Below are positions 3,696-29,523 of a DNA stretch of 32,390 bases, in pieces (position 1 is the stretch's first letter; every line of letters starts with the position of its first letter). Source of the DNA: Lysobacterales bacterium. Its GTDB lineage: Bacteria; Pseudomonadota; Gammaproteobacteria; Xanthomonadales; SZUA-36. The notes under the pieces were generated by a model. The model was not told the DNA's origin, did no database searches, and saw only the letters and a program-made list of their open reading frames with translations. The DNA lies in the NCBI GenBank assembly GCA_009692275.1, contig SHZL01000003.1, positions 1-32,390 of the forward strand. Reading direction: 5' to 3'. Position numbers and translations under genes: made by a program.

Positions 3696-3754
3696 ATAAT
3701 CTGGCACGATGCTCTGACCCCAAACCCTGACCCGAGAGTATTTACTCTGACCCC
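3683..3754. repeat. 72-bp palindromic interspersed repeat, copy 2
   Basis: Same 16-bp arms and length as copy 1 in direct orientation. About 6 internal mismatches. Confidence 0.9.
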
Positions 3755-3765
3755 AAAACCTGGCC

Positions 3766-4206: not shown

Positions 4207-4916
4207 GTATTCCTCAGCAATTTGACGGCTTCCTCGATTCTCCTGAATCTCTCTTTCGCCACCGCAACTGCAGCTTCTCCCATTGCTTCAACCCGGCCGG
4301 AATGGAATATGGCTGTCAGGTTCTCATAGGCGCTTTCAATTTCGCTCTGCGTTGCGCTTAAACCGACGCCCAGAGCAGCGCGGGCTTGCTCAATCGTCAT
4401 GCGCGCACCCGGCTGGCCGTCGTTTGCGGAATTTTCGAGCAGACCCTCGCTGGAAACCTGATCCCACCAAAGCATGCTGCTTGGGTCGCCGGGCTGAGAA
4501 AATGCAGAACCGGATATGGTTTGAAAGCGTTTTTCCAGGAGCTCAATTCCCAGGTACAGGGCATCGGCATAAAAGCGCAGGATATGGTTCTCGGTTATCG
4601 CTATGCGGCGATCGGCCATCGACATGGTTATGGCCAGGTCGAGAAAAGCCGTGCGCAGTTCCCTGCTTTCCTGCGCGACAGTGCGGATCGCCGTTTCAAT
4701 GCTCTTCGAATCGCCTTTGCGTATGGTCGCCAACACGTCATCGGTCGTTGTCGTTCCCATGCTGTCGGGAAAATGCGAGGCGGCAAATTCCAACTCGGAT
4801 TCATCCAGTGTGCCGTCGCTCGCGGCCACCCACAAAAGCAGCAGCTTGACGCAACTTGCCAACTGCTCTTTTTGGCTCTGCGGCGCACCCTTCAATTTTG
4901 AGTTTACGATTGACAT
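4203..4916 (-). CDS. TerB-like / J-like domain protein
   Basis: LLLLWVAASDGTLDESELEFAASHF...LDLAITMSMADRRIAITENHILRFYADALYLG resembles TerB. C-terminal ARAALGVGLSATQSEIESAYENLTAIFHSGR...FRRIEEAVKLL resembles a degenerate J domain. Confidence 0.6.
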   Translation of the reverse strand: MSIVNSKLKGAPQSQKEQLASCVKLLLLWVAASDGTLDESELEFAASHFPDSMGTTTTDDVLATIRKGDSKSIETAIRTVAQESRELRTAFLDLAITMSMADRRIAITENHILRFYADALYLGIELLEKRFQTISGSAFSQPGDPSSMLWWDQVSSEGLLENSANDGQPGARMTIEQARAALGVGLSATQSEIESAYENLTAIFHSGRVEAMGEAAVAVAKERFRRIEEAVKLLRNT

Positions 4917-4924
4917 CGTTGCCT

Positions 4925-6622: not shown

Positions 6623-6781
6623 TTTCCTTTCCTTCCTGATTGCATCGGGGAAGTCTGATTATGACCAGTTTTCAGCCGGAGAACAGCGCGCCACCGTTTT
6701 GGCACAGCGATTGGCCGGATTGGAATACCAGAAGTTTGGGGTCCGGGTAAGAATGCATGAACTGCTGAAGGAATCTTGATT

Positions 6782-8695: not shown

Positions 8696-8723
8696 GGAAA
8701 CTCTGATTTATTCAGAGTTTTCC
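8695..8723. terminator. Candidate bidirectional terminator between convergent genes
   Basis: GGGAAACTCTGA-TTTAT-TCAGAGTTTTCC hairpin, 12-bp stem with one mismatch, A/T tracts on both sides of the CTCTGA core. Located at the junction of convergent stop codons. Confidence 0.5.
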
Positions 8724-10182: not shown

Positions 10183-12585
10183 TCAGGCCAGCTGGCGCAC
10201 ATTCAGCTGTGGCGCAGGCCTGGGCACGGGTGCAGTTGAGTACAACGTAGTGCGCTGGTATGGCTTGCGCCCGCAGGAGATGATCACGCGTTCCAGCGTG
10301 GCCGGTTTCATTTCCTGCCCGTGAACTGCGCCCGCCGCACGCGTGATGCTTTCGTTCATCAGGGTGCCACCTATGTCATTGGCGCCCGACTGCAGGCAAA
10401 CCCGTGCGCCTTCCAGGCCCATTTTCACCCACGAGGTCTGGATGTTCGGAATGTGCGTGGACAGCACCAACCGCGATACGGCATGCATCAGCACTGCTTC
10501 GCGAAAGGTCGGGCCGCGCCGTGACTGGCCACGCCGGTAAATGGGCGCCTCATCGGCCACGAACGGCAGCGGCACGAATTCGGTGATGCCACCGGTACGA
10601 ATCTGCAGTTCCAGGACACGCAGCAGGTGGACCGCCCAATGGTGGTAGGCATCAACATGTCCAAACATGATGGTGGCCGTGGTTGGCAAGCCGACCCCGT
10701 GTGCCGCCCCGACCACGGCCAGCCACTGCTCCGTGTTGAGCTTGTCCGGGCAGATGATTTCCCGGATATCGTCGGACAGGATTTCCGCCGCGGTACCCGG
10801 CAGGGTCTTGAGCCCAAGCTCTTTGAGCTGCCGCAAGAACGCTGGAATTGTGAGGCCCAGAGTTTCCGCCCCGTGGGTAACCTCCAGCGGAGAAAACGCG
10901 TGGATATGCATGTCCGGCAAAGCCTGGTGCACCGCAGCACAGATGTCCAGGTAGGACTGTCCGGTGAACTCAGGATGGATGCCCCCTTGCAGGCAGACCT
11001 CGGTGGCGCCGCGTTCCCAGGCTTCAATCGCGAGGTCAGCCACGTCCTGCGGGGTTTTCAGATAGGGTGCGTCGCTGGCTGGCGTGCGTTTTTTTCCCTT
11101 GGCAAAAGCACAGAACTTGCAGCGGTAGGTGCACAGGTTGGTGTAATTGATATTGCGATTGACCACGTAACTGACCTGGTCACCACAAATCGATGCACGC
11201 ATGCGATCCGCTGCCTGGCAAACGGCAAAATACTCATCTCCCCTGGCATCAAACAGGCGGCTGATCTGGGCAATGCTCAGGGTGTTACCGTGTTCTGCCT
11301 GGTGCAGGATTGAACTTAAAGCGGCTGACACGTGGCGGCGATTGATGCGTATGTAGGAGGCAGATGGCGCCGTCCGGAAGTCGTGCGGGACTTCTACAGA
11401 CGTTCCGCTCAGCCAATTGTCTTCTCTCGCCAGGCCTGCGCTGTCAGACAGCTTCAACACGAAGGGCCGCACTTCGTCAGCCAGCCAGGTTTCGGCGGCG
11501 AGCGCGAAATTGCGGTAGATCGTCAGCCGCTGCTGCAGGCACTTGCCGGCTGCCCTGGTTTCCTCGGATAACACTTCGAGCTCAGGCCAGGGTGATTCGG
11601 GATTGACGTGATCCGGCGTGAGCGGGGACACGCCACCCCAGTCGTTGATGCCGGCTGCTAGCAGGCGTGCCCAGCCCCCCGAGTTGAGATTGGGTGGAGC
11701 CTGGATACTCATTGCCGGGCCAAAAATGATCCGCGCCATGGCCACGGTCCAGAGCATTTCTTCTGCCGCCGGTGGCGCAACCCGGGCCATCTTGGTATCG
11801 GCCTTGGGCACGAAATTCTGGATGATGATTTCCTGGATATGGCCGTACTTCTGCTGCACATCCCGGATCGCCAGCAATGAATCCAGCCGTTCTTCGCGCG
11901 TCTCACCAATGCCAATCAGAATGCCGGTCGTAAAAGGAACCCTGGCCTGGCCCGCGTCCTCCAGGGTCTGCATGCGCACCGCCGGGTCCTTGTCGGGTGA
12001 ACCGTAGTGCACCTGCCCTTTCCCGCACAACCGCGGCGATACGTTCTCCAGCATGATGCCCATCGAGGCAGACACCGTACGCAGCATGGCAATCTCCGCC
12101 GGCGTCATGCATCCGGCGTTGATGTGGGGCAGGAGGCCGGTTTGCTGCAAAACTTCCCGTGCGACGTGAGCGACATACTCAAGCGTTGTGGCAAAGCCCA
12201 TCTCGGCCAGCATCTTGCGGGCCGCCTCGTAGCGCAGCTCCGGTTTCTCGCCCAGCGTGAACAAGGCTTCCTTGCAGCCCATTTCCTTGCCCTGCCGGGC
12301 AATGGCCAGCGCTTCTTCAACCGACATGTAGGCGGAAGACAGGTGTTTGGGCTCGGTCGCAAACGTGCAGTAATGGCACAGGTCACGGCACAGGCGGGTC
12401 AGTGGAATGAATACCTTGCGCGAATAGGTCACGATATTGCCATGGCCGGCATCGCGTAGCGCGGCTGCCTCAGCGCAGAGCTGCTCCAGCGGAACCGTGG
12501 CAGACATCCGGTGGACCTCAGCCCGTCCCGGAAAGGTGTACCCCGGCAGATTGTGGACGGGGCTCTGATTTATTGCGTCACTCAT
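10183..12585 (-). CDS. fbiC: 7,8-didemethyl-8-hydroxy-5-deazariboflavin (FO) synthase, fused CofG-CofH type
   Basis: Two radical-SAM CxxxCxxC motifs: CRDLCHYCTF in the N-terminal half and CTYRCKFCAFAKGKKR in the C-terminal half. About 800 aa; CofG followed by CofH order. Confidence 0.95.
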   Translation of the reverse strand: MSDAINQSPVHNLPGYTFPGRAEVHRMSATVPLEQLCAEAAALRDAGHGNIVTYSRKVFIPLTRLCRDLCHYCTFATEPKHLSSAYMSVEEALAIARQGKEMGCKEALFTLGEKPELRYEAARKMLAEMGFATTLEYVAHVAREVLQQTGLLPHINAGCMTPAEIAMLRTVSASMGIMLENVSPRLCGKGQVHYGSPDKDPAVRMQTLEDAGQARVPFTTGILIGIGETREERLDSLLAIRDVQQKYGHIQEIIIQNFVPKADTKMARVAPPAAEEMLWTVAMARIIFGPAMSIQAPPNLNSGGWARLLAAGINDWGGVSPLTPDHVNPESPWPELEVLSEETRAAGKCLQQRLTIYRNFALAAETWLADEVRPFVLKLSDSAGLAREDNWLSGTSVEVPHDFRTAPSASYIRINRRHVSAALSSILHQAEHGNTLSIAQISRLFDARGDEYFAVCQAADRMRASICGDQVSYVVNRNINYTNLCTYRCKFCAFAKGKKRTPASDAPYLKTPQDVADLAIEAWERGATEVCLQGGIHPEFTGQSYLDICAAVHQALPDMHIHAFSPLEVTHGAETLGLTIPAFLRQLKELGLKTLPGTAAEILSDDIREIICPDKLNTEQWLAVVGAAHGVGLPTTATIMFGHVDAYHHWAVHLLRVLELQIRTGGITEFVPLPFVADEAPIYRRGQSRRGPTFREAVLMHAVSRLVLSTHIPNIQTSWVKMGLEGARVCLQSGANDIGGTLMNESITRAAGAVHGQEMKPATLERVIISCGRKPYQRTTLYSTAPVPRPAPQLNVRQLA

Positions 12586-12588
12586 TAC

Positions 12589-13449
12589 CTAAACCTCGCT
12601 TGCCTCTGCGGCTGGCATGTTGCAATCCCTGTCGCACAGAAATTTCCATGTTGCCGTGTGCTGAAACTCTTCATTGTGCCGGTAATACTCCAGCAAAATT
12701 CCTAGATCCCCGGGCTCATCGACGTCCATACCCACCGTCAGCGATTCCAGTAAAACGACGTCTGCGTGACGCGAACCGGCGCTGGCACAATGTAACGCAA
12801 AACTGTCCGGACCATAGCAGAACTCGAAGGGCTGCCCCGCATCGAGGAACAGGCAATTGGTGCCGCCACGATCCGCCGAGGGGCTGATTCCTATCATTTC
12901 GCCGGCACAGCTTACTGCCCGGGCGAGGAAAATTCCCGCCAGGCGGTCCAGTTCCGTGCCGGTCACAAGCGGAATGTCGGAATGAATGATCACCAACCGG
13001 CGTCCTCCGTTTTGGCGGATGGCCTCAACCCCAAGGGCAATGGCCGCGTTCATGTCGCAGTTGCCATGCTCCTGCACCAACAGCAGTCCCCGCTGCAGGG
13101 CCAGTTCAGCCACCCGCGGGTCCGCAGTCACAATGGCAATTCCCGAGACTGCCTTGCTGGCAACCAGTGCATCCAGCACATCCTTCAGCATGGCAAAAGC
13201 AAAATCTTCACGCTTCGGTCCAAAGTACTGCTGCAGGCGTTGCTTTGCCATCGTCAAAGCCTTGACCGGAACCAGTGCCCACAGGCTTTTGGCAACGGGA
13301 CTGCGCGCTGCAACCGAACTGTTGGCGAATGCTTGCGTTTCTAGCGGTATTTGAATAATGTTCAAACTCTGGGTGATGATAGCAAAAGTTACACGTGTTG
13401 CAAGACGGACTGAAGCGGCCACGCATTGCCACGCTCGCAGTGTCACCAT
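12589..13449 (-). CDS. cofC: CofC/FbiD-type phospholactate (or PEP / 3-phosphoglycerate) guanylyltransferase
   Basis: LWALVPVKALTMAKQRL...AIVTADPRVAELALQRGLLLVQEHGNCDMNAAIALG...VIIHSDIPLV...ISPSADRGGTNCLFL...DVDEPGDL. Start uncertain: the ORF track opens at a TTG (13515), an ATG is at 13449, and the conserved core begins only near 13290. Confidence 0.85.
   Translation of the reverse strand: MVTLRAWQCVAASVRLATRVTFAIITQSLNIIQIPLETQAFANSSVAARSPVAKSLWALVPVKALTMAKQRLQQYFGPKREDFAFAMLKDVLDALVASKAVSGIAIVTADPRVAELALQRGLLLVQEHGNCDMNAAIALGVEAIRQNGGRRLVIIHSDIPLVTGTELDRLAGIFLARAVSCAGEMIGISPSADRGGTNCLFLDAGQPFEFCYGPDSFALHCASAGSRHADVVLLESLTVGMDVDEPGDLGILLEYYRHNEEFQHTATWKFLCDRDCNMPAAEASEV
13351..13365. promoter_or_regulatory. 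Candidate operator palindrome (site A) near the cofC/pgl divergent region
   Basis: TTGAATAATGTTCAA (extends to TTTGAATAATGTTCAAA, 13350-13366). 13 of 15 positions match the palindrome at 24580-24594. May overlap the 5' part of the cofC ORF depending on the true start. Confidence 0.4.
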
Positions 13450-13567
13450 TATGATGAAATCGGTATGCCGTACAAGTTCAAATTGCGCCACTAACCCCCG
13501 GTTTTGGTGAATCAATGCAAACAGGAATGATTAGGCCAGGTTGTCTGCGGCTCCCAAGTGACCCGCA

Positions 13568-14254
13568 GTGAATCTGTTGTCGCTGGCATCACCACCGGAC
13601 CTCGCCAGGGCTGCGGCGGAACACATTGGTACCTGCGCGCTGCAGGCGGTTGCGCAACGCGGTCGATTTTCACTCGCCCTCAGCGGCGGCAGCACGCCGT
13701 GGCTGATGTTGAACCATCTGGCTCGCCTGGATCTGCCCTGGGATCGTTTTCATGTTTTCCAGGTGGACGAAAGGGTTGCACCCGATGGCGACCCGGAAAG
13801 AAACCTGACGCACATCCAGGCCCAGTTCACCAGCCGGGTCTGCATTCCACCGGGCCAGGTGTATGCCATGCCGGTACTGGAAGAAGACCTCGATGCTGCC
13901 GCCAACAACTACATGCACACGCTGCACGGCCTTGCCGGCATGCCGGCGATCCTTGATCTCGTTCACCTCGGGCTGGGGGGCGACGGGCACACGGCTTCAT
14001 TGTTTCCGGGCAACCCCGTGCTGGACTCGCTGGCTCTTGACGTGGATATTGCCCGTGTTGCGCAGCAACGCATGCGCATGACGCTGACTTATCCCGTCAT
14101 CAACCGCGCACGGAATATCCTGTGGCTGATCAGCGGGGCGGACAAAGCCGGCATGCTGCAGCGCCTGATCGCGCAGGACCAGTCAATTCCGGCAGGACGC
14201 GTCAGCCAGGACCTGGCGACCATTTTTACCGACATTCCGTTGCTTACTACCTGA
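13568..14254 (+). CDS. pgl: 6-phosphogluconolactonase
   Basis: FSLALSGGSTPWLMLNHLARLDLPWDRFHVFQVDERVAPDGDPERNLTHIQ; DLVHLGLGGDGHTASLFPG; WLISGADKAGML. GTG start. Confidence 0.93.
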   Translation: MNLLSLASPPDLARAAAEHIGTCALQAVAQRGRFSLALSGGSTPWLMLNHLARLDLPWDRFHVFQVDERVAPDGDPERNLTHIQAQFTSRVCIPPGQVYAMPVLEEDLDAAANNYMHTLHGLAGMPAILDLVHLGLGGDGHTASLFPGNPVLDSLALDVDIARVAQQRMRMTLTYPVINRARNILWLISGADKAGMLQRLIAQDQSIPAGRVSQDLATIFTDIPLLTT

Positions 14255-14287
14255 TTTTATTGCTAACACACTGAGACATTGCCAACC

Positions 14288-15307
14288 ATGACTACTCATT
14301 CCAAGCTCAAACTAGGTTACAAAGCATCCGCTGAACAATTCGGCCCCCGCGACCTGCTGGAGTTTTCGGTCCTCGCAGAGGAGGTCGGCTTTGACTCGGT
14401 TTGGGTCAGCGATCACTTCCAGCCGTGGCGGCATAAAGGCGGGCACGCACCGTTTTCGCTGGGCTGGCTGGCGGCCCTGGGCGAGCGCACATCCAGGATC
14501 ACCATGGGCACCAGCGTTGCTACACCGACCTTCAGATATCACCCCTCGGTCGTAGCACAAGCATTTGGAACCCTGGGAGCGCTCAGTCCGGGGCGCGTGG
14601 TGCTGGGGGTTGGCACCGGTGAATCGCTGAACGAGGTGCCCGCCACGGGCATGGAATGGCCGGGGTTCAAGGAGCGCTTCGGGCGGCTCAAGGAATCGAT
14701 AACCTTGATGCGCAAACTTTGGACCGAAGAGCGCGTGACCTATGACGGTGAGTATTACAAAACGTCAAACGCCACCATTTATGACCGGCCGGACGAACCC
14801 ATACCCATCTACATTGCTGCCGCCGGCGAAATGGCAGCCCGGCTTGCCGGCAGGGTTGGCGATGGTTTTATCTGCACCAGCGGCAAGGCCCCGAAGCTTT
14901 ACAGCGAAACCCTGCTGCCCAATGTTCAGACCGGGCTTGAAGCATCCGGGCGGAACATGAACGACCTGGAAAAAATGATCGAGATGAAAGTATCGTTTGA
15001 TACGGACATCGACGCTGCCCGGGACAACACCCGGTGGTGGGCTGCGCTGGCTCTGTCACCCGAGGAAAAAACCAGCGTGGAAGACCCGCAAGAAATGGAA
15101 CGGCTGGCGGATGCCTTGCCGCTGGAGCGCATCACCAGTCGCTGGATCGTTTCCGCTGATCCGGAAGAGCAGGTGGAGCGCATCCGGCCCTATATTGAAC
15201 TTGGCTTCACCCACCTGGTGTTCCACGCGCCGGGTCCGGACCAGGAGAAATTCCTACGCCTGTATGCCGAGCAGGTGCTGCCACTATTGCGCAAGAAATT
15301 CGGTTGA
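14288..15307 (+). CDS. fgd: F420-dependent glucose-6-phosphate dehydrogenase (luciferase-like fold)
   Basis: [124 protein letters not shown]. Close throughout to remembered mycobacterial Fgd1, including the active-site His/Trp/Glu and phosphate-binding Lys/Lys/Arg positions. Confidence 0.94.
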
Positions 15308-15347
15308 GTTCCAGAACGACTGCTAACCGATTACGCGTCGTCTTCCG

Positions 15348-16115
15348 GTGAATTCGCCTGGACTGCTGATACACCCCGTAACGGACCTGCCGCTGGTCCG
15401 TAGCGGAGACAATCTCGCGCTGCTGATCGGCACTGCCTGTGATCGTGTCGGCTTCGCCCTGCAGGATGGTGACGTGCTGGTCCTGGCGCAGAAGATCGTA
15501 TCCAAAGCGGAAGGCCGGCAGGTGCTGCTGGCTGATGTTGAGGCTTCCCCGGAAGCGGTGAAACTTGCCAAAGAAGTGGACAAGGACCCAAGGCTGGTTG
15601 AACTTGTCCTGCGGGAATCGGACACCATCATACGCAAGACCCGCGGCGTGCTGATCGTGCGCCACCGCTTGGGCATCGTCAGCGCCAACGCGGGGATTGA
15701 TCAATCCAATATCTCCCACGACGAAGGCGAGTCGGCACTGCTGCTGCCGCTGGATCCGGACCAGTCCGCCCGGCGCTTGCGCGCTGACTTTGCCGCGGAC
15801 CACAACTTAAACCTCGGTATCATCATCAGCGACAGCATCAACCGTCCGTGGCGCATGGGCACCGTTGGCATCGCCATCGGCAGCGCGGGCATTACGGTAC
15901 TTGATGACCGGCGCGGACAGGCCGACATGTTTGGCCGGGAACTCAAAGTCACGATGATCAACCGCGCGGACTCAATTGCGACAGCAGCCATGCTGGTGAT
16001 GGGTGAAACCACCGAACGCGTCCCGGCCGCCATAGTGCGGGGCTTTCCTGCCGAAAACTCTTCGCAGGGAGCTGCGGACAGCCTGCGGCCCCTGGCCGAA
16101 GACTTGTTCAGGTAA
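15348..16115 (+). CDS. cofE: Coenzyme F420-0:L-glutamate ligase, single-domain CofE
   Basis: LVLAQKIVSKAEGRQVLL; RHRLGIVSANAGIDQSNI; LLLPLDPDQSARRLRADF; GIIISDSINRPWRMGTVGIAIGSAGI. 255 aa, with no FbiB-type C-terminal nitroreductase domain. Confidence 0.94.
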   Translation: MNSPGLLIHPVTDLPLVRSGDNLALLIGTACDRVGFALQDGDVLVLAQKIVSKAEGRQVLLADVEASPEAVKLAKEVDKDPRLVELVLRESDTIIRKTRGVLIVRHRLGIVSANAGIDQSNISHDEGESALLLPLDPDQSARRLRADFAADHNLNLGIIISDSINRPWRMGTVGIAIGSAGITVLDDRRGQADMFGRELKVTMINRADSIATAAMLVMGETTERVPAAIVRGFPAENSSQGAADSLRPLAEDLFR

Positions 16116-16117
16116 GC

Positions 16118-17071
16118 ATGAGCACGGGGCGATATCTCGCCATCACCGGTGGCGTGGGCGGCGCCAAGCTGGCACTGGGTCTCTCTAAAATCCTGCCGCC
16201 TGAGCAATTGGCGTTTGCGGTCAACACCGGTGATGATTTCCGCCATCTTGGCCTGCTTATCTCGCCGGATATCGATACCCTGATGTATACCCTCAGCGGC
16301 GACAACAATACCGAGACCGGCTGGGGCAGGAAAGGCGAAAGCTGGCAGTTCATGGACGCGCTGGCGCAACTGGGTGGCGAGACCTGGTTTCAGCTCGGGG
16401 ACAAGGACCTTGCCCTGCATGTCGAGCGCACCCGCAGGCTGGCAGCCGGAGAGTCGCTCACACGTTGCACCTCGGCCCTCGCCGCGTCGCTGGGCATAGC
16501 GCATCCCATCTGGCCCATGTCCGATGACAGCGTAAGCACACAGGTGCTCACGGCCGGCGGGCCGCTGGCTTTCCAGCACTATTTCGTGCGCGACAAGTGC
16601 GTTCCGGTGGTCACGGGCTTTGCATTCCAGGGTTCAGGCAACGCGAGGATCAACTTGGAAATACTCCACTGGCTGGACCAGCCTGACCTCGCCGGCGTGA
16701 TCCTTTGCCCTTCCAATCCCTTCGTCAGCATTGATCCCCTGCTCTCACTGCCCGGCATGCGCGAGCGCCTGGCAAGGTGCGAGGCGCCCGTCATTGCGGT
16801 GTCACCCATTGTTGCCGGCGCCGCCATCAAGGGGCCTGCCGCCAAGATGATGCATGAACTGTCACTACCCGTTTCGGCCACTGCGGTACTGCGCCACTAT
16901 GCCGATTTCCTCGATGGCTTTATCGTGGACGAGCGCGACAGCGAGTTGCAGGCTGAACTGGACTCGTCCGGAGTCGCCATCAAAAATGCGCAGACCGTGA
17001 TGGACAGCCTGGAGGACCGCGTTGCGCTGGCCCGGGTTTGCGTGGAGTTTTGTGCCAGCCTGCCGTTCTAG
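16118..17071 (+). CDS. cofD: 2-phospho-L-lactate transferase (F420-0 synthase) CofD/FbiA
   Basis: YLAITGGVGGAKLALGLSKIL; VNTGDDFRHLGLLISPDIDTLMYTLSG; WFQLGDKDLALHVERTRRL; GVILCPSNPFVSIDPLLSLPGMRE. Confidence 0.95.
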   Translation: MSTGRYLAITGGVGGAKLALGLSKILPPEQLAFAVNTGDDFRHLGLLISPDIDTLMYTLSGDNNTETGWGRKGESWQFMDALAQLGGETWFQLGDKDLALHVERTRRLAAGESLTRCTSALAASLGIAHPIWPMSDDSVSTQVLTAGGPLAFQHYFVRDKCVPVVTGFAFQGSGNARINLEILHWLDQPDLAGVILCPSNPFVSIDPLLSLPGMRERLARCEAPVIAVSPIVAGAAIKGPAAKMMHELSLPVSATAVLRHYADFLDGFIVDERDSELQAELDSSGVAIKNAQTVMDSLEDRVALARVCVEFCASLPF

Positions 17072-17105: not shown

Positions 17106-18137
17106 TCAGGCCAGTCGATAGAAGCGCGTCGCCGTATGGTGGAATAAAGCACTGCGTTCTGATGCGGAATATTCCGCAGTGAGGCGCTTGAACGCATTCC
17201 ACAATACCGTGTAGGAACACGATGCCTTGTCCACCGGAAAATCGCTCTCGAACATGCAGCGCCCGGCGCCGAACAATTCTATGCAGGCGCGGAAATAAGG
17301 TGTCATGGCCGCGGCCAGCTCAGCTGAACTGGGTGGCGCGGCGCTCTTGTGCCAGCCAAACCCTGCCGACGTCAGGGTCCGGCCACCGAGCTTGACGCAG
17401 ACGTTTTCGCAGCGGGCCAGTTCCGCCATGTCCCTGCGCCATGCATTGAACACTTCTTCGCGCTGCCCGGCATATGGGCCTATGCCCAGTGGACCAGCCA
17501 TGTGGTTTAGAGCTATGGGCAGCTGTGGGAAGGCTTGTGCCAGTTCGGTGAGCTGCGGGATTTGCGGATGGAACAGCCAGGCGTCAAAGCTCAGGCCCAG
17601 GCCTTGCACGCAGGCCAGTCCCTGGCGGAAGTCCGCAGTCTGCAACAGGTTCCATAGCGGCTTCGTATGGGCGTTGTGCACCTGCTCGCTCGCATCCCAG
17701 GCACTGGCATGGCGCACGCCGCGAAAGCGTTTGCTCGCCGCCCTGTGGGCTTCGAGCACAGGCTGCACTGCAGCGCCCAGTGCCAGGTCCGCAAAACCGA
17801 CTATGCCGGCCGCCACGTTGACCTGCCCACCCGGCACATTAGTCTTCCCCGCCGGGGCCGGATACACGCCGGCGACACTATCGACGAATTCGGTTTCTCC
17901 TGCCGGCCTGAGTTCAACCGGACCCTCCGTGCGGTAGAACTGCAGGCACTCCACGAACACGCTGCTGACCACCTTGTGGCCGCCCCCAACATTTCCGCTG
18001 ATATCCTGCAGGAATTCATCGACGAGGTAGCGGTTATCGGGGTAATCCCACAGATGATGGTGGCAGTCGCAGATGGGCAGTTCCGGTTCGAGCACAGCCT
18101 CCCGGGTCAGCTCCAGCCAGGCACTCCGGTCGGGCAT
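17106..18137 (-). CDS. Amidohydrolase_2-family (TIM-barrel metal-dependent) hydrolase
   Basis: PICDCHHHLWDYPDNRYLVDEFLQDI; ALNHMAGPLGIGPY; CMFESDFPVDKASCSYTVLWNAFKRL. Confidence 0.88.
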   Translation of the reverse strand: MPDRSAWLELTREAVLEPELPICDCHHHLWDYPDNRYLVDEFLQDISGNVGGGHKVVSSVFVECLQFYRTEGPVELRPAGETEFVDSVAGVYPAPAGKTNVPGGQVNVAAGIVGFADLALGAAVQPVLEAHRAASKRFRGVRHASAWDASEQVHNAHTKPLWNLLQTADFRQGLACVQGLGLSFDAWLFHPQIPQLTELAQAFPQLPIALNHMAGPLGIGPYAGQREEVFNAWRRDMAELARCENVCVKLGGRTLTSAGFGWHKSAAPPSSAELAAAMTPYFRACIELFGAGRCMFESDFPVDKASCSYTVLWNAFKRLTAEYSASERSALFHHTATRFYRLA

Positions 18138-18139
18138 GC

Positions 18140-18562
18140 TCAGGGCGCCGGCCCCGCCGGCTTGAATACGGGCACAGTGACTTGTTCCGACCAGGCCGCA
18201 AACGCTACCTCGACGCGCAATCCGCTGCGCACCTCATCCGCGTCGCATCCGTTCACCTGGCTCATCATCACCGGGCCCTCATCCAGCTTGATCAATGCAA
18301 TGACGTACGGAACATCGGCTGCATAGGCCTCCGCAACCGGTCGCCGCACCACGGTCCAGGTCGTCACGGTGCCGAATCCGCTGGCCTGCTCCCACGCGGG
18401 TTCGCGCGCCATGCACCCGGTGCAAAAACTGCGCGGATAGAACTGGTACTGGCCACAGTTGCCGCAATGCTGGATGAGCAACTGGTGTTTGCGGCAGGCA
18501 TCCCAGTAGACCCGGCTGACCGGGGTTGGATGTGGCAGGAATTTTTCCGTGTTCGCTGTCAT
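18140..18562 (-). CDS. Zn-ribbon/OB-fold DUF35 protein, acyl-CoA-associated
   Basis: YWDACRKHQLLIQHCGNCGQYQFYPRSFCTGCMAREPAWEQASGFGTVTTWTVVRRP: CxxC...CxxC Zn ribbon. 1-nt overlap (TGATG) with the upstream thiolase-like gene. Confidence 0.9.
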   Translation of the reverse strand: MTANTEKFLPHPTPVSRVYWDACRKHQLLIQHCGNCGQYQFYPRSFCTGCMAREPAWEQASGFGTVTTWTVVRRPVAEAYAADVPYVIALIKLDEGPVMMSQVNGCDADEVRSGLRVEVAFAAWSEQVTVPVFKPAGPAP

Positions 18563-19737
18563 CAGTCCCGCTCCCTGCCCAGTATCAAGGTGGAGTGGCT
18601 GGACATGATGCCACCCTGAGCATGGACCAATGCAATCTCCGCCTCCCCGACCTGTCGCTCGCCGGCAGCGTGGCGCAATTGGGTCACAGCTTCCGTCAGG
18701 GCAAAAATTGCACCCGGGTGTCCAGGATGACAGTGCGACAGCAGCCCGCCATGGGTATTCATCGGCAGTGAGCCTTCCAGCGCAGTTTCACCTGCTGCCA
18801 CAAACGAACCTGCCTCGCCCTTGGCGCAAAAGCCGAGATCTTCGAGCTCGATCAGCACCACCGGGGTAAAGCAGTCATATATTCCCGCGACGTCGATATC
18901 TGCCGGACCCAGCCCTGCCATGTGGAATGCCCGGCGTCCTGAATCAGCCGCAGCTGAAGTGGTCAGGTCGTGCGCCTGGCTGATGTGTTCATGGCTATGA
19001 CCTTCTCCTGCGCCCAGCAGATACACCGGGTGATGCCGGAAATTTTTCGCCCGGCTGGCCGAAGTAAGGATAACTGCCGCACCACCGTCGGATACCAGCG
19101 AACAGTCCAGCAGGTGCAGCGGATCGGCGATCATGCGCGAATTGAGTACATCATCGATGCTGATCAGGTCGCGCATTTGCGCAGCGGGATTCCGCGCCGC
19201 ATGCCTGCGCGCGTGCACGGCTACCGCGGCAAACTGCTCCGGCGTTGTTCCATAGGTATCCATGTGGGCGCGGGCAATCAGCGCGTAGTAGGCCGGCACC
19301 GTTGGCCCGTAGGGAATCTCGAATTCGCGGTGCCCGGTGGACGACTGCATCTGCATGGCCTGGTCACGGCTCAGCCCGCTGCGCAGGCTGTCGGCGAGGC
19401 AGATCAGTACCGTTTCGCACACACCTGCCGCGATGGCATTGGCGGCGTGGAACAGGCTGGAATAGGTCGTGCCCCCGCCGGCGCTGGCGCTGATACAGTA
19501 GCGCGGAAAAATCTGCAGGTACTCGGCCAGCACTTCCGCCTGGTACATGTGCGGCTCGGCCATGGAATTACAGGTAACCAGGCCGTCCACCTCGTCCTTG
19601 CTCATGCCGGCATCGTCCAGCGCACGCAAAGCCGCCTCGATGCACAGTTCGGTGGAGCTCAGTCCCGGCACCTTGCCGACTTCGGTGTCGGCCGCTCCGA
19701 CAATTGCTACTTTGCCACGCAGGGTATCCACGCCCAC
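18562..19737 (-). CDS. Thiolase-like (SCP-x/Ltp family) protein, candidate aldolase
   Basis: VAIVGAADTEVGKVPGLSSTELCIEAALRALDDAGMSKDEVDGLV; YDCFTPVVLIELEDLGFC; PMNTHGGLLSHCHPGHPGA. The usual nucleophilic Cys region reads ISASAGGGTTYSSL. Confidence 0.88.
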   Translation of the reverse strand: MGVDTLRGKVAIVGAADTEVGKVPGLSSTELCIEAALRALDDAGMSKDEVDGLVTCNSMAEPHMYQAEVLAEYLQIFPRYCISASAGGGTTYSSLFHAANAIAAGVCETVLICLADSLRSGLSRDQAMQMQSSTGHREFEIPYGPTVPAYYALIARAHMDTYGTTPEQFAAVAVHARRHAARNPAAQMRDLISIDDVLNSRMIADPLHLLDCSLVSDGGAAVILTSASRAKNFRHHPVYLLGAGEGHSHEHISQAHDLTTSAAADSGRRAFHMAGLGPADIDVAGIYDCFTPVVLIELEDLGFCAKGEAGSFVAAGETALEGSLPMNTHGGLLSHCHPGHPGAIFALTEAVTQLRHAAGERQVGEAEIALVHAQGGIMSSHSTLILGRERD

Positions 19738-19743: not shown

Positions 19744-20166
19744 CTACACGCTGCGCCGCGGAAAGCACACGGTGGCGTCGCCGGGCAGGATTTCTTCACC
19801 TTTCTGGTTCCTGATGAACAACTTGAGCGTGACCCGGCCTTGCGCAGCATCCACTGCAGTGACCGCGCCGCCGGAATACAGCACATCACCAATATATGCA
19901 GCCTTGCGGTTGCGGTATTCGAGCGATTCCAGGTCGCCATCTTCGCCCAGCCAGTCGGTCACGCACTGGCTCAGCCAGTCGCCCATTTGCGGCCCGGCAA
20001 TCACGAGGCCAGGGTAGCCTTCCACTGCGGTAGCATAGGGATAATCAAAATGAATGCGGTGTGCATTCCACAGCACGGCGTTGTACAGGAACAGCTCCAC
20101 GTTATCTACCTTGAACTCGCGCTCCGGCAGGGCATCACCCGGATGAATTTGGTCGATTCGTGCCAC
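19744..20166 (-). CDS. MaoC-like hydratase subunit (hot-dog fold)
   Basis: LYNAVLWNAHRIHFDYPYATAVEGYPGLVIAGP matches the MaoC/mesaconyl-CoA hydratase type. GTG start overlaps the upstream TAG. Confidence 0.85.
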   Translation of the reverse strand: MARIDQIHPGDALPEREFKVDNVELFLYNAVLWNAHRIHFDYPYATAVEGYPGLVIAGPQMGDWLSQCVTDWLGEDGDLESLEYRNRKAAYIGDVLYSGGAVTAVDAAQGRVTLKLFIRNQKGEEILPGDATVCFPRRSV

Positions 20167-20663
20167 TATCGCATGATCCGGGTGGTTTTTTCAGTGACTA
20201 CCGGCAAGCCTTTGGCGTTGACGACTTCCGTCGTGACTTCGTAAAAAATCAACGGGCCCTGCGCGCCCTGTTTCTCATGAATATCCGTCAGGGTGCGCGT
20301 AGCTACCAGTACATCGCCGGGAAAGATGCGCTGGTGCCAGGTCAGTTTCACGCCACCCGCCATCGCCCGCTTGAGCGGGAATTCCGGCACCAGCGGGTCA
20401 ATCGAAATTCCGTCCGGCGTCAGCTGGTCCAGTTCAACCACATCCCAGAACAATGAAATATGGAACATGGGCGGAGCTTCATCACCTGCCAGGTATTTCT
20501 TCCCGCGCTGGCCAGTGGCAACGGCATACTTGCGAATATCCCGGCGCGTGACGAGTTCTGTCCTTGGCGGGGAGGACTTACCAATATGTGCCAGCAATCC
20601 AGGATTGAGCAGGCTGGTCAAAACGGAACGTCGAGCGCGAGGTGCCGCACTGCGATCTGCCAT
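20166..20663 (-). CDS. FAS1-like / MaoC N-terminal dehydratase subunit
   Basis: VTRRDIRKYAVATGQRG...APPMFHISLFWD...LDGISIDPLVPEFPLKRAMAGGVKLTWHQRIFPGDVLVATRTLTDIHEKQG (hot-dog half). Start uncertain because it overlaps the upstream gene. Confidence 0.8.
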   Translation of the reverse strand: MADRSAAPRARRSVLTSLLNPGLLAHIGKSSPPRTELVTRRDIRKYAVATGQRGKKYLAGDEAPPMFHISLFWDVVELDQLTPDGISIDPLVPEFPLKRAMAGGVKLTWHQRIFPGDVLVATRTLTDIHEKQGAQGPLIFYEVTTEVVNAKGLPVVTEKTTRIMR

Positions 20664-21031
20664 TGGCCATCGACTTTCTTCACCAGGTCACGATACACGC
20701 CGCTGGTCATGACGTTGATCTTGCCGTGCTCGGACTGGAATGCCACCAGGTTGGACACGACCCTGGCCGAACCTTCCTCAGCCGATTCAAAGTAGATATT
20801 GGAGATCACGTGGCGGCGATCTTCAGTGTGTGCGTTCATCGAGTCGGTCATCAGCTTCATGATGGCCTCGCGGCCAACAAACGGAGGAATTTCCCCTGCG
20901 CCCTTGATCTCCAGCTCAAAGCGGGCATCGCTGGTGAAACACGGCTCCATGAGCGCGACATTGCGCTGGTCCAGGCCGGAAACGGCTTTGGCAAGCACTT
21001 CGTGAATGGCAATGATGTCTATGGGGTTCAT
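20618..21031 (-). CDS. SnoaL-like / NTF2-fold protein
   Basis: IHEVLAKAVSGLDQRNVALMEPCFTSDARFELEIKGAG...FVGREAIMKLM...TSGVYRDLVKKVDGQWQIAVRHLALD. Confidence 0.82.
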   Translation of the reverse strand: MNPIDIIAIHEVLAKAVSGLDQRNVALMEPCFTSDARFELEIKGAGEIPPFVGREAIMKLMTDSMNAHTEDRRHVISNIYFESAEEGSARVVSNLVAFQSEHGKINVMTSGVYRDLVKKVDGQWQIAVRHLALDVPF

Positions 21032-21062: not shown

Positions 21063-21671
21063 TTATTTAAAATCGGCCATTTCCAGCACACTGGCATGGA
21101 ACAGCCTGCGGGCCTGTAGCAAATCCAGCCAGCCATCAAAGTATGCGGCCGTGCGCAAGCCAATCAGCAGGGCGTAGGCAACTTCAGCGTGGTCGCTGGC
21201 TTCCGCCGGTTTGCACCCCGCCTGCCTGAACAACTCCTCCAGGTAGTTCTTGCAAAAGAGATCCAGCGCGGATTTTTCGGCATGCAACTGGCGGTCATGC
21301 ACGGCCACGCCAAAACACTCCAGCATGAATCCTGTCTCTGAGTTGGCGATGCCCTTGCCGGCAAAGAACAGATCCGCCAGGTAGTCTACCTGTTGCGCCG
21401 GGCTCGCCTTGCGGAAGCTGTTGATACGCTCGATGATGCGTTGCGACACCACATTGAAATAATGCGCGAGGATGGCGTCCTTGCCGGAAAAATAATAAAG
21501 CAGATGGCTGGCGGTCATTCCCGCCTTGCGCGCTACATCCCGCAGCGTGGTGCTGGAGTAGCCGTTGCGGATGATGCAGTCGTGAAAGGCTTCCAGGATC
21601 AATTCCCGCCGGTTGTCCCCGCGGGAACCGGCCAGGACACTGGGATCTTCTACTTTCACTCTTGTGGTCAT
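21063..21671 (-). CDS. TetR/AcrR-family transcriptional regulator
   Basis: RRELILEAFHDCIIRNGYSSTTLRDVARKAGMTASHLLYYFSGKDAILAHYF helix-turn-helix signature. Confidence 0.93.
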   Translation of the reverse strand: MTTRVKVEDPSVLAGSRGDNRRELILEAFHDCIIRNGYSSTTLRDVARKAGMTASHLLYYFSGKDAILAHYFNVVSQRIIERINSFRKASPAQQVDYLADLFFAGKGIANSETGFMLECFGVAVHDRQLHAEKSALDLFCKNYLEELFRQAGCKPAEASDHAEVAYALLIGLRTAAYFDGWLDLLQARRLFHASVLEMADFK

Positions 21672-21721: not shown

Positions 21722-22474
21722 TCAAAGCTTACTGGATTCACCTCCGTCAATCACGAAAACACTGCCGGTAACGAAATTGGCGCTGGCCGAGGACAGGTAA
21801 CAAATCAGCGGGCCAATTTCGTGAATTTCTCCCATGCGCCGCGCGGGTATTTTTCTCAGGCGGCGCTCCAGCATTTCAGCGGATTCCAGTACTGCCTTTT
21901 GTGCATCGGTCACGAACGCGCCGGGTGCAATGGCGTTGACCTGCACGCCCTTGCTGGCCCATTCAGCCGCCAGCGCCTTGGTAAACTGCAGCAAAGCCCC
22001 CTTGGACGACGAATACGAAACCAGTCCCGCCTTGCCCAAAATCCCGGAGGTCGAGGCGATATTAATGATCTTGCCGGTCCCCCTCGCGACCATGTGCTTG
22101 CCGGCAGCGCGCGCCAGCACCGCGGGTGCCGTAATGTTTACCGCCAGCACCCGGTCCCATTCGCTCTCATCCTGCTCAAGAAACGCCCCGGCGGGAGCAA
22201 TGCCGGCGTTGTTGACGACCACGTCGAGCCGCCCAAAGCGCTCAATCGCAATCTGCGGCAAGGCAGCAACGGCCGCCCGGTCCTGCATGTCGCAGGTCTG
22301 GATAGCCACGAGACCGGGGTGATCCGCCGCAAGTTGCTCAAGTTCTTCGGTAGACCGAGCTACGGCAAGGACGCTCGCGCCCTGCTCCGCCAGCGCAACG
22401 GCGGCCGCCCGCCCCAGCCCGCGACTGGCGCCGGTGACAATGGCTACCTTGCCTTCGAGTGCGAAGTCGATCAC
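21722..22474 (-). CDS. Short-chain dehydrogenase/reductase
   Basis: GKVAIVTGASRGLGRAAAVAL; VVNNAGIAPAG; YSSSKGALLQFTKALAAEW; VNAIAPGAFVTD. Confidence 0.95.
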   Translation of the reverse strand: MIDFALEGKVAIVTGASRGLGRAAAVALAEQGASVLAVARSTEELEQLAADHPGLVAIQTCDMQDRAAVAALPQIAIERFGRLDVVVNNAGIAPAGAFLEQDESEWDRVLAVNITAPAVLARAAGKHMVARGTGKIINIASTSGILGKAGLVSYSSSKGALLQFTKALAAEWASKGVQVNAIAPGAFVTDAQKAVLESAEMLERRLRKIPARRMGEIHEIGPLICYLSSASANFVTGSVFVIDGGESSKL

Positions 22475-23676
22475 ACAACTTCCTCAGTCAATTGCCGGGC
22501 AATACCCAGGCGCAAGACCTCTGATGCACCTTCATAGATGCGCATGGGTCGCGCCTGTCGATACAGTTTTTCGATTTTTGACCCGCGCATCAGCCCCCAC
22601 CGACCCATCACCTGCACACAGCGGTCAACGACACGCGAAGCCATCTCGCTGGCGGCCAGCTTGGCCATGGACGAATGGTGCAGCGAGGCCACCGGATCAT
22701 CAATCGCCATGTAGGCTGCGCGATACGTCAGCAGTCGCGCCATTTCAATTTCCGTCCAGCTGTCGGCCAGCATTTGCGCCACCGGACCCAGTCGCGCCAA
22801 TGGACGGCCGAACTGCACCCGGGTGCGGGTGTGGCGCACGGCTTCTTCCAGCGCCGCCTGGGCCAGGCCGACTGCCGCACCAGCCACCGAAACGCGGAAC
22901 ACGCCCAGCGTGGCCAGCACCAGCGACAGGCCGGTGCCTCGCGCGCCCAGCCGGGCTGAATCCGGCAGTAGCACGTTATCGAAATGAACCTCACCCAGTA
23001 CATGCGGCGCAATCAACTCCGGGCTGGGTGAAACCGACACACCGTGCGCATCTGCCGGCACCAGCAGCATGGTGAATCCTGAGTCTTCGTAGGCAAAGAC
23101 CAGGTAATAGGCAGCAAAACCGGCGTTGGAAATAAACGACTTTGTGCCATTGAGGCGCAAGCCGCCGTCAACGACCGTCACTTCGGTCTTGATGGATTTG
23201 AGGTCCGAACCGGCTTCCGGCTCGGTCAGCGCCAGCGCGGCGAGCACCTCGGCGCTGGCAATGCGTGGCAACCAGTGCGCACGCTGTGCCTGCGTCCCGG
23301 CGCTGGTTATGGCGTAACTGCCGATGCCCTGCAAGGCAAACAAGGAGTCAGCATGCGAAGAGGTTGCCATCAGGGCCTCCCGCACCACGCAAATGGCCAG
23401 GGGGTCAAGCCGGGCAAACCGGCCGCCGAATTCCCCGGGCACCATCAGTTGCGTCAGTGCACTGTCGCGCAGGGCTTTGAGCACACCGGGGTGAACCTCG
23501 CTCATTTCGTCGGCTGCGGCGGCAACGGGCTCTATTGACCGGGCAAATTCCCTCGCCTCCTGCTGTATTTCAAGGTACTTCATACCGAGGCTAAAAGGTC
23601 CAGGCGTAAAAGGCACCACGCCTGAGCCTGTTGGTTCCGGAGCATCGGCCGGGGCGGTGTTCTTCTGTTGTTTCAT
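22471..23676 (-). CDS. Acyl-CoA dehydrogenase
   Basis: LALTEPEAGSDLKSIKTEV; GTKSFISNAGFAAYYLVFA; VQFGRPLARLGPVAQMLADSWTEIEMAR; CVQVMGRWGLMRGSKIEKLYRQARPMRIYEGASEVLRLGIARQL. Start trimmed to MKQQK. Confidence 0.95.
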   Translation of the reverse strand: MKQQKNTAPADAPEPTGSGVVPFTPGPFSLGMKYLEIQQEAREFARSIEPVAAAADEMSEVHPGVLKALRDSALTQLMVPGEFGGRFARLDPLAICVVREALMATSSHADSLFALQGIGSYAITSAGTQAQRAHWLPRIASAEVLAALALTEPEAGSDLKSIKTEVTVVDGGLRLNGTKSFISNAGFAAYYLVFAYEDSGFTMLLVPADAHGVSVSPSPELIAPHVLGEVHFDNVLLPDSARLGARGTGLSLVLATLGVFRVSVAGAAVGLAQAALEEAVRHTRTRVQFGRPLARLGPVAQMLADSWTEIEMARLLTYRAAYMAIDDPVASLHHSSMAKLAASEMASRVVDRCVQVMGRWGLMRGSKIEKLYRQARPMRIYEGASEVLRLGIARQLTEEVV

Positions 23677-23692
23677 TGAAATCAAACCCCTG

Positions 23693-24463
23693 CTATTTCT
23701 TCGCCCGGCCCTGGAACTGGGGTCGCCGTTTTTCCATGAAAGCGGTAGCACCTTCAATCATGTCCGCGGAGCCTATGGCCTGTACCAGCATGCCGAGGCC
23801 GCTGAGGTAGTTATCGCGGCACTGGTTCCACCACACGTTGGAGCTGATCTTGGCGATTTCGAGGTAACGCGGGCTCATGTATAACAACTCGTCCGCCCAG
23901 CGCGTGACTTCCGCTTCGAGCTGATCAGCGGGGACAACCGCATTGATCAAGCCCATTGCCAGTGCGTCGTTCGCCTTGTACCTGCGGCACATAAAGGCAA
24001 TTTCCTTGGCGCGTTTTTCGCCCACGCTGTGCGACAGGAAATTCGTTCCGCCCAGAACAGGTGCGCTGCCAACTCGTACGCCGGTCTGTCCAAACGTGGC
24101 ATTCTCGGCCGCAATGGCCATGTCACAGGCCACTACCAGCTCGTTGCCGCCGCCTGCCGCTGCGCCGTTGACCGCAGCAATGACGGGCCGCGGGCTGGTG
24201 CGGATCGCTTCGTAGACATTCAATGACCCATAAAACATGCGGCGCAGGGCTTCCGGGTCCGGTTTACTCAGATTGGCCAGGTAACCGCCGGCACAAAACG
24301 CCTTGCCAGTCCCGGTCAGCACGATCACACCCGCGTCCGACGCATTCTGCACGGCATCAATCAGTGCCCGGGCCATTTCGGCATCGTACGCGTTCATACG
24401 GTCCGGGCGGTTCAGGCGGATCCAGGCAACTTCGCCCCTGCGTTCTGTTTCGATGTCCGACAT
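23693..24463 (-). CDS. Enoyl-CoA hydratase/isomerase (crotonase) family
   Basis: VAWIRLNRPDRMNAYDAEMARAL; GTGKAFCAGGYLANL; PVIAAVNGAAAGGGNELVVACDMAIAAENATFGQ; C-terminal EGATAFMEKRRPQFQGRAKK. Start trimmed to MSDIETERRG (24463). Confidence 0.93.
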   Translation of the reverse strand: MSDIETERRGEVAWIRLNRPDRMNAYDAEMARALIDAVQNASDAGVIVLTGTGKAFCAGGYLANLSKPDPEALRRMFYGSLNVYEAIRTSPRPVIAAVNGAAAGGGNELVVACDMAIAAENATFGQTGVRVGSAPVLGGTNFLSHSVGEKRAKEIAFMCRRYKANDALAMGLINAVVPADQLEAEVTRWADELLYMSPRYLEIAKISSNVWWNQCRDNYLSGLGMLVQAIGSADMIEGATAFMEKRRPQFQGRAKK

Positions 24464-24550
24464 GCTTGCCTCGCTTTTACTGGACTGAAGAGTGTAAAAA
24501 CCCCTGGTTTCGCGGAACCGGAGAGTAGCCAGTAACTCCCGGCTGCTTGC

Positions 24551-24594
24551 TTGACAGTTGGATACATTCTGTGGAAGTATTGAACAAAGTTCAA
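24551..24594. promoter_or_regulatory. Candidate divergent promoter with operator palindrome (site B, 24580-24594)
   Basis: TTGAACAAAGTTCAA (24580-24594) lies almost midway between the divergent starts at 24463 and 24709. Plus-strand TTGACA at 24551-24556. Minus-strand TTGAAC, 17-nt spacer, CAGAAT (24594 to 24566). Confidence 0.5.
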
Positions 24595-24708
24595 GTTCTG
24601 TTAAAGAAGAGTTTATTTTTACCATCCGGCCCAGCCAGCAGAAGGGCTGGAAATACAGCTGCGGATTGATCGCTTAGCAGCAATCCAAATCCATCGGGGA
24701 CACTCATA

Positions 24709-27174: not shown

Positions 27175-27762
27175 ATGTCTGACGCACCAAAGCCCAAATT
27201 TGACCCGGTAAAACTCGAACAACTCAGCGTGGCTCAGGATTATCCTATGGAGCCGGATGAGTTTAATCTGCTATTCCAGGAAAACGCCTATTGCGAGATG
27301 GCCCACGTCAACGGGCGGGGATATCCGGTTGTCACACCGATGTTTTATGTCATTAAAAATGACCACATCATGATGAGCAGTATCAAGGAATACCGTCACA
27401 AGGTAGGCCACTTGATGAAAAACCCAAAGATAACGGTCAGCATCCACAATGACGGCACCAATGTTCGCCATCAGAAAGCCATCCTGGTCATGGGTCAGGC
27501 CAAGATTCATGACGACGATGCTTTGATGCGCGAAATTCACTGGATGATCATTGACAAGTATTTCTTCGAAATTACCACCGACGAAGATCGCGCAGCGGTT
27601 TTTGAAGCTGTGCACACCCCCCTGCGCTGCATCATTGAAGTGGTGCCCGAGAAAATCCTGACCTGGGACCTGGGCAAGATGCTCGAGGCGCATGATGAAG
27701 GCGTCTGGTACGGCGAGTCCCAGAAACTGGTCAGCAAGCACATGGATAAGAAGTATTTGTGA
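27175..27762 (+). CDS. PPOX/FDOR-like split-barrel flavin- or F420-binding protein
   Basis: FQENAYCEMAHVNGRGYPVVTPMFYVIKNDHIMMSSIKEYRHKVGHLMKNPKITVSIHND pattern of the pyridoxamine-phosphate-oxidase-like superfamily. RBS-like GGAGG upstream. Confidence 0.78.
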   Translation: MSDAPKPKFDPVKLEQLSVAQDYPMEPDEFNLLFQENAYCEMAHVNGRGYPVVTPMFYVIKNDHIMMSSIKEYRHKVGHLMKNPKITVSIHNDGTNVRHQKAILVMGQAKIHDDDALMREIHWMIIDKYFFEITTDEDRAAVFEAVHTPLRCIIEVVPEKILTWDLGKMLEAHDEGVWYGESQKLVSKHMDKKYL

Positions 27763-27771
27763 TCCCTTAGT

Positions 27772-27799
27772 AGCAAACAGCAAGCAGCAAGCGGCAAGG
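27772..27799 (+). repeat. Four imperfect 7-bp tandem repeats in a short intergenic gap
   Basis: AGCAAAC/AGCAAGC/AGCAAGC/GGCAAGG between the PPOX-like gene and the acyl-CoA ligase. Confidence 0.75.
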
Positions 27800-27830
27800 A
27801 ATAAGCAAACCAGGCAACAGGAAGAAAAAG

Positions 27831-29492: not shown

Positions 29493-29523
29493 CTCGACGA
29501 TATAGCCTGGGGAGAAAGCACGA

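Follow-up and report, generated by a model that had tools for sequence, protein, structure and literature searches.

Which reaction can be expected of a thiolase-fold protein that lacks the nucleophilic Cys of thiolases and is encoded together with a DUF35 protein? The question is raised by two adjoining genes in the window, i.e. the whole stretch of 32,390 nucleotides that was analysed, which comes from a metagenome-assembled genome (2.2 Mb, 66% complete):

19737–18562, minus strand: THIO, a thiolase-fold protein of 391 aa (GTG start) without the nucleophilic Cys, predicted to be a beta-hydroxyacyl-CoA retro-aldolase
18562–18140, minus strand: stand-alone DUF35 partner of 140 aa, with the Pfam domains zf-ChsH2 and OB_ChsH2_C

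An original prediction, made from the DNA letters, had proposed that this pair cleaves a beta-hydroxyacyl-CoA by a retro-aldol reaction rather than by thiolysis. The features it had listed are all present: the two genes overlap by one base, which is shared by the stop codon TGA and the start codon ATG in the junction TGATG (...GGGACTGATGACAGC...); the YDCFTP motif occupies residues 287-292 of THIO; and Gly88 sits in place of the nucleophilic Cys, within SASAGGGTTYSSL (residues 83-95). Pfam assigns Thiolase_C_1 to THIO with 212 bits, and both domains of the 140-aa protein (DUF35) are far above their cut-offs. Moreover, THIO is matched by the NCBIfam model PRK06158 'acetyl-CoA acetyltransferase' at 421.4 bits for a cut-off of 421 bits; since this cut-off is exceeded, by a margin of 0.4 bits, automatic annotation would call the protein a thiolase. 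Literature searches on the gene set gave mostly papers on steroids.

The active site of THIO was delineated by alignment, which gives the following positions:

19474..19476, minus strand: codon of Gly88, at the position of the thiolase nucleophilic Cys and of CtSal Gly89 (alignment, invariant in 84/84)
18868..18879, minus strand: YDCF motif, with Tyr287 as proposed base and Cys289 as proposed acid (alignment, invariant in 84/84; roles after PMC12329534)
18727..18729, minus strand: codon of His337, the retained His of the thiolase GHP motif (alignment, invariant in 84/84)

Gly88, Tyr287, Asp288, Cys289, Phe290 and His337 are invariant in the 84 fully aligned relatives of THIO, a set that reaches down to about 50% identity. 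The nucleophilic Cys of the DUF35-type thiolases 6ESQ and 7YVY ('AACAS') aligns on Gly88, and as Gly is found there in all 84 relatives, the missing Cys is neither due to chance nor a sequencing artefact. A nucleophilic Cys elsewhere in the protein, which the original prediction had named as evidence against itself, was searched for in every conserved Cys column of the 84 relatives, and no credible substitute was found. The Cys columns kept in all of them are C212, C289 and C304. Those of C212 and C304 hold Cys also in TcLtp2 and in 4U4E (the Sphaerobacter thermophilus 'thiolase'), and that of C304 in CtSal as well, thus neither is a new nucleophile; Cys289 falls on the position of the catalytic acid of Sal, and its column is that of the acid-base Cys of SCP2 thiolases, not that of the thiolase nucleophile. 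The His of the thiolase HDCF/HDAF motif is absent from THIO, its place being taken by Tyr287 in 84/84, while the His of the GHP motif is kept as His337 in 84/84.

Tyr302 and Cys304 are both essential to Sal, the Y302F variant having nearly no activity and the C304A, C304S and C304H variants none detectable, and Ltp2 has the catalytic Tyr294 and a second catalytic Tyr344 (PMC12329534). By alignment, Tyr287 of THIO corresponds to CtSal Tyr302 and TcLtp2 Tyr294, Cys289 to CtSal Cys304 and TcLtp2 His296, His337 to CtSal Gln352 and TcLtp2 Tyr344, and Leu332 to CtSal Gln347; Arg201, present in most members, corresponds to the CoA-contacting Arg216 of CtSal. The alignment of catalytic tyrosines called for by the original prediction thus succeeds for Ltp2 Tyr294 and fails for Ltp2 Tyr344, whose column is the invariant His337. 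Judged from these alignments, the THIO family is a combination of the Sal dyad with the GHP His of thiolases, without the two Gln of Sal and without the second Tyr of Ltp2. As a natural active-site variant with His in place of Gln or Tyr, it could be used to probe how the Cys of Sal gets activated. Further Cys-less branches paired with DUF35 carry either YDCF with Ser at the His337 column (L110, L113) or, as 4U4E, YDSF with His (L111 and L112, homologues of 4U4E with an adjoining DUF35), and the third active-site residue therefore varies between His, Gln, Tyr and Ser.

At the structural level, a single-chain AlphaFold2 model of THIO was computed (37-sequence alignment, mean pLDDT 84.4, pTM 0.89). 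In a Foldseek search with this model, 4U4E, 9MYR (Sal-Shy) and 6OK1 (Ltp2-ChsH2) rank by E-value above all true thiolases, with PhlC/MucC lower. A phmmer search of the PDB with the THIO sequence likewise gives 330 bits for 4U4E, 233 for CtSal 9MYR and 220 for TcLtp2 6OK1, and lower scores for true thiolases. Furthermore, a maximum-likelihood tree sets the THIO family, 4U4E, Sal and Ltp2 against SCP2, archaeal and Bbs thiolases with a support of 100/97, and in a second tree, to which IpfD was added, the Cys-less DUF35-paired group is split from true thiolases with a support of 100/100; archaeal DUF35-type thiolases and BbsB stay outside the Cys-less branch in both trees. Within the Cys-less side, where the deeper order is without resolution and several rows are long branches, the THIO family forms a branch of its own (100/98 or better) that groups with neither Sal nor Ltp2, and CtSal and its orthologue L108 make a separate one. 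That THIO could be an Ltp2 orthologue is rejected on its residues together with the tree.

The distribution of the gene pair was examined in the best 80 of 125 relatives found by a search of genome contigs (50–81% identity to THIO). DUF35 adjoins THIO in 78 of these 80 loci, and the contigs of the other two stop there. The partner contains a Zn ribbon:

18413..18466, minus strand: C4-type Zn ribbon of DUF35, Cys33-x2-Cys36-x10-Cys47-x2-Cys50 (alignment)

Each of the four Cys is conserved in at least 95% of 87 aligned sequences, and the site is of the C4 type as in ChsH2, as opposed to the C3H1 type of Shy. In the steroid pathways, DUF35 physically links the aldolase to the hydratase acting just before it (Shy, or ChsH1–ChsH2), whereas in the window DUF35 is free and MaoC is encoded by separate genes. 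Sal relies on DUF35 for usable, stable protein. The original prediction had gone too far in stating that Ltp2-type aldolases need this domain, as DUF35 does not appear to be important for Ltp2 activity (PMC11321319).

The genes surrounding the pair in the window are as follows:

17106..18137, minus strand: Amidohydrolase_2 (lactonase-like) protein, directly downstream of DUF35 and conserved in the host family
19744..20166, minus strand: MaoC1, a hotdog hydratase subunit, like the C-terminal half of itaconyl-CoA hydratase 8KHG
20166..20663, minus strand: MaoC2, a second hotdog subunit (FAS1_DH_region/MaoC N type), like the N-terminal half of 8KHG
20618..21031, minus strand: SnoaL-like protein, weakly similar to the beta subunits of Rieske dioxygenases
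21063..21671, minus strand: TetR-family regulator, kept near the module in 28 loci (best 80 of 125)
21722-22474, minus strand: SDR
22471-23757, minus strand: acyl-CoA dehydrogenase
23693-24625, minus strand: BadI/MenB-like crotonase
27175..31299, plus strand: divergent set of a PPOX-class protein, an acyl-CoA ligase and a KstD-like FAD dehydrogenase
27831-29492, plus strand: the acyl-CoA ligase of this set
29524-31299, plus strand: the KstD-like FAD dehydrogenase of this set (243 bits for a KstD cut-off of 789)

MaoC1 carries a conserved N-x-H-R-I-H-x-D at 20067-20044 that matches the motif of 8KHG and, from their sequences, MaoC1 and MaoC2 look like a split two-domain hydratase. Among the best 80 of the 125 relatives, MaoC1 is directly upstream of THIO, with MaoC2 next, in at least 51 loci (about two thirds) and is found anywhere in the cluster in 54; the pair is not beside THIO in Binatia and some Bacillus. 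In the same 80 loci, the SnoaL-like gene is kept just upstream in 37 cases. The TetR-family protein probably regulates the cluster. The SDR, acyl-CoA dehydrogenase and crotonase genes (21722..24625), which occur as the same set in the same order in L037 and L034 and partly in L062 and L025, probably share the pathway of THIO, and the divergent genes at 27175..31299, which accompany the module entirely in L037 and in part in L034 and L062, are likely to serve substrate activation and desaturation. With its KstD-like protein far under the steroid cut-offs, this divergent set could possibly belong to an alicyclic acid pathway.

We propose that THIO and DUF35 form a retro-aldolase (a beta-hydroxyacyl-CoA lyase) belonging to a Cys-less, DUF35-paired branch of the thiolase superfamily, and we put the probability of this prediction from sequence at roughly three in four. 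A MaoC hydratase, a thiolase fold unable to form the usual acyl-enzyme and the residue pair of Sal together make 'hydrate, then retro-aldol' the best reading; each of the two known aldolases is supplied by a MaoC hydratase. The preference of the original prediction for retro-aldol cleavage over thiolysis thus stands, on residues, phylogeny, fold match and neighbourhood, but its Ltp2-type pattern has to be replaced by that of Sal, with the Tyr and Cys of YDC[YF]. In the pathway that we envisage, an acid would be activated by a CoA ligase and then desaturated, and the neighbouring MaoC1/MaoC2 would hydrate the enoyl product to a beta-hydroxyacyl-CoA. THIO would then break the bond between the alpha and beta carbons with no covalent acyl-enzyme: Tyr287 would accept the proton of the beta-hydroxyl, bond cleavage yielding an aldehyde or a ketone, and Cys289, which His337 may polarise in place of the two Gln of Sal, would protonate the acyl-CoA enolate to give acetyl-CoA or propionyl-CoA. 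DUF35 would flank the THIO dimer, after the pattern of the wider group of DUF35-paired thiolase-fold enzymes, heterotetramers in which the thiolase-fold dimer is central, and would shape or stabilise the active-site cleft. Several observations count against a retro-aldolase. Gln347 and Gln352 of Sal, the proposed activators of its Cys, are Leu and His in THIO; the retained thiolase-type His could suit another reaction; a beta-keto substrate could be supplied by the SDR that both the window and many relatives encode upstream; and Binatia and some Bacillus have no MaoC pair beside THIO.

We regard it as unlikely that THIO is still a thiolase or Claisen-type enzyme (hydrolytic retro-Claisen, decarboxylase or acyltransferase) using Cys289 or water as nucleophile. 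The match to PRK06158, barely above its threshold, and the GHP-type His are in favour of such an activity, as is the very weak malonyl-CoA decarboxylase activity of TbSLP, which has YDCF (PMC12329534); however, Sal showed no such decarboxylation, the nucleophile position is Gly throughout the 84 relatives, Cys289 takes the acid-base and not the nucleophile position of SCP2 thiolases, and the archaeal DUF35-type thiolases and BbsB by phylogeny, as PhlC/MucC by fold, lie further away. It is highly improbable that THIO is non-catalytic, i.e. a dead thiolase-fold scaffold binding the MaoC hydratase: non-catalytic partners are common in heteromeric hydratases such as ChsH2 (PMC11321319), but the Tyr/Asp/Cys/Phe/His set is fully conserved across phyla, and Binatia and some Bacillus have THIO but no MaoC pair linked to it. 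We also find it quite improbable that THIO is a steroid side-chain aldolase proper, a Sal or Ltp2 orthologue acting in a steroid or bile-acid pathway. The common tree branch, the similar operon logic (hydratase, aldolase and DUF35) and the KstD-like FAD dehydrogenase of the window would fit this role, but the THIO family branches apart from both enzymes and keeps neither Ltp2 Tyr344 nor Sal Gln347/Gln352, the Zn site of its DUF35 is C4 and not the C3H1 of Shy, and the KstD-like protein, at 243 of 789 bits, is far under the KstD cut-off. In addition, a profile search for the steroid-ring enzyme HsaA in 25 genomes, 24 of them THIO carriers, gave no match over the 450-bit cut-off, which leaves a steroid side chain unsupported as the substrate. 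This marker is imperfect, because the control genome G262, which carries a true Sal, also stays below the cut-off (373 of 450 bits). In the host family, HsaA gives trace scores or none in five THIO-positive members (83-97% complete); the exception is G024, with a strong HsaA-like match and, on the same contig, a separate Ltp2-like gene. HsaA-like proteins scoring 360–404 bits occur in several Halieaceae carriers of THIO, and steroids may therefore be used by those hosts.

Within the retro-aldolase reading, the substrate is probably a non-steroid CoA ester, of the aryl- or alicyclic alkanoyl type. A narrower proposal, that the beta carbon of such an aryl or alicyclic alkanoyl-CoA is a ring carbon and is hydroxylated by a Rieske oxygenase instead of being hydrated, is possible and rather doubtful. 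It draws on the 25 relatives, mostly Halieaceae, whose cluster includes a Rieske alpha gene, usually placed right behind DUF35 (so in most Halieaceae carriers), and has a Rieske-beta-like SnoaL upstream; on the ligase that adjoins DUF35 in Bacillus carriers, joined in Alteribacillus by an aromatic-acid:H+ symporter; and on the precedent of IpfD/IpfE, the same pair of genes outside steroid catabolism, which takes the acyl-CoA group (propionyl-CoA) off the ipso-diol of ibuprofen-CoA. This carbon skeleton needs cleavage beside a carbinol carbon, from which we infer retro-aldol chemistry, and the sequences too point to IpfDE being a retro-aldolase and not a thiolase. Against the Rieske route, no Rieske alpha gene lies within the window, the MaoC pair accompanies THIO more constantly, IpfA and IpfB are just 24-34% identical, over part lengths, to the Rieske and SnoaL proteins of the relatives, and IpfD clusters with Ltp2 and not with the THIO family. 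On plasmid pIBU218 (L121), the pair at 13228-14826 consists of a Cys-less, Ltp2-like IpfD (YDAF and Tyr) and an IpfE without Zn-ligand Cys, and a second Ltp2-like/DUF35 pair is found at 938-4556 with crotonase and CaiB-type CoA-transferase genes.

Carriers of THIO among the best 80 of the 125 relatives belong to Halieaceae and other Gammaproteobacteria, Emcibacter, Binatota, Myxococcota, Rokubacteria and Alteribacillus/Bacillus; in the host family, seven further members carry the gene, which is partial in one of them. In Binatia, the pair lies mostly among housekeeping genes (FtsK, RNase J, Ruv, YebC), which thus give no clue to a pathway. In Halieaceae and their kin (L040, L043, L044, L056, L080, L083, L090, L095), the conserved gene order is APH-ligase-TetR-hydrolase-LLM-TetR-SDR-SnoaL-ligase-MaoC2-MaoC1-THIO-DUF35-Rieske-TonB-GST-PQQ dehydrogenase. 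Both aldolase types lie side by side in L057, where an Ltp2-like/DUF35 pair with two acyl-CoA dehydrogenases (4285-9872) is divergent from a P450 gene that directly precedes a THIO of the query type. The THIO cluster is also present in metagenome-assembled genomes labelled Klebsiella pneumoniae (L047, L054, L057), labels which are probably wrong.

The window also contains genes for cofactor F420:

10183..17071: F420 set comprising CofGH, CofC, CofE, CofD, an F420-dependent glucose-6-phosphate dehydrogenase and a phosphogluconolactonase-family protein

This is a complete-looking biosynthesis set in a proteobacterium, with CofGH as a fusion, and the F420-dependent glucose-6-phosphate dehydrogenase scores 494.8 bits for an equivalog cut-off of 420. 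In the host family, CofE is present in 8/8 THIO-positive versus 2/31 THIO-negative genomes (Fisher 7e-7, uncorrected for kinship and physical linkage). Cof genes occur at most 4 kb from THIO in 7 of the 80 other loci (best 80 of 125), one of which is alphaproteobacterial; in the window and in L026, L029, L033, L037, L038, L050 and L052, which represent several lineages, the distance of F420 biosynthesis genes to the aldolase module is 0.4-4 kb. Among the Halieaceae carriers sampled, those with CofE in the genome contain an LLM-class gene in the cluster; this gene is missing in Pseudohaliea and Luminiphilus, which are without CofE. An obligatory link between module and F420 is ruled out by the Bacillus, Pseudohaliea, Luminiphilus and Cycloclasticus carriers without CofE, and those in Bacillus indicate that the THIO step itself does not require F420. 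Why Proteobacteria make F420 is an open question (PMC8498797), on which this repeated link bears; an F420-linked catabolic island, if true, would be a physiological reason for F420 synthesis in those Proteobacteria.

More tentatively, and with somewhat less than even confidence, we suggest that THIO represents a third design (Tyr-Cys-His) of thiolase-fold retro-aldolases in Pseudomonadota, Binatota, Myxococcota and Bacillota, which together with a free DUF35 and a MaoC hydratase encoded by two genes would make up a general non-steroid 'hydrate then retro-aldol' module bypassing beta-keto formation and thiolysis, and which in many Proteobacteria would be part of an F420-linked catabolic island. 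As the family is automatically named acetyl-CoA acetyltransferase or thiolase, retro-aldol C–C cleavage outside steroid catabolism is probably under-recorded.

Compared with known systems, THIO shares YDCF and the absence of the nucleophilic Cys with TbSLP of Trypanosoma brucei (5AB4-7), a proposed aldolase (PMC12329534), which unlike THIO is eukaryotic and without DUF35. The best match of THIO, by sequence (49%, blastp) and by fold, is 4U4E, which has Gly for Cys, the YDxF Tyr and the retained His (THP), but differs by YDSF instead of YDCF and lies in its own clade. The IpfD/IpfE pair of pIBU218, encoded near a ligase and a Rieske oxygenase, is likewise a Cys-less thiolase-fold protein with a DUF35 partner, the substrate of IpfDE being a beta-hydroxylated CoA ester; at 32% identity to THIO, with YDAF and a Tyr at the Ltp2 Tyr344 column against YDCF and His, and with IpfE devoid of the Zn Cys found in the C4 site of the window, IpfD is a functional parallel and not an orthologue, because it is Ltp2-like and groups with Ltp2. 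Ltp2 (TcLtp2-ChsH2DUF35, PDB 6OK1), which acts on a C3 side chain, resembles THIO in lacking the nucleophilic Cys, in the YDxF Tyr294, whose motif reads YDHF in Ltp2, and in a DUF35 with a C4 Zn site, and departs from it in identity (37%), in clade, in its oxyanion-hole His296 (Cys289 in THIO) and in Tyr344 (His337). Sal (CtSal-ShyDUF35, PDB 9MYR), which acts on the C5 side chain of bile acids in Comamonas, is 36-37% identical to THIO and falls in a separate clade; its Gln347/Gln352 are Leu332/His337 in THIO, its partner Shy is a DUF35 fused to MaoC with a C3H1 Zn site in place of a free C4 DUF35 and separate MaoC1/MaoC2, and no sign of a steroid pathway goes with THIO. Nevertheless, Sal has in common with THIO the Gly at the nucleophile position and the Tyr/Cys dyad, together with the CoA-contacting Arg216 (R201 in THIO), Gly390/391, a DUF35 partner and a MaoC hydratase in the locus.
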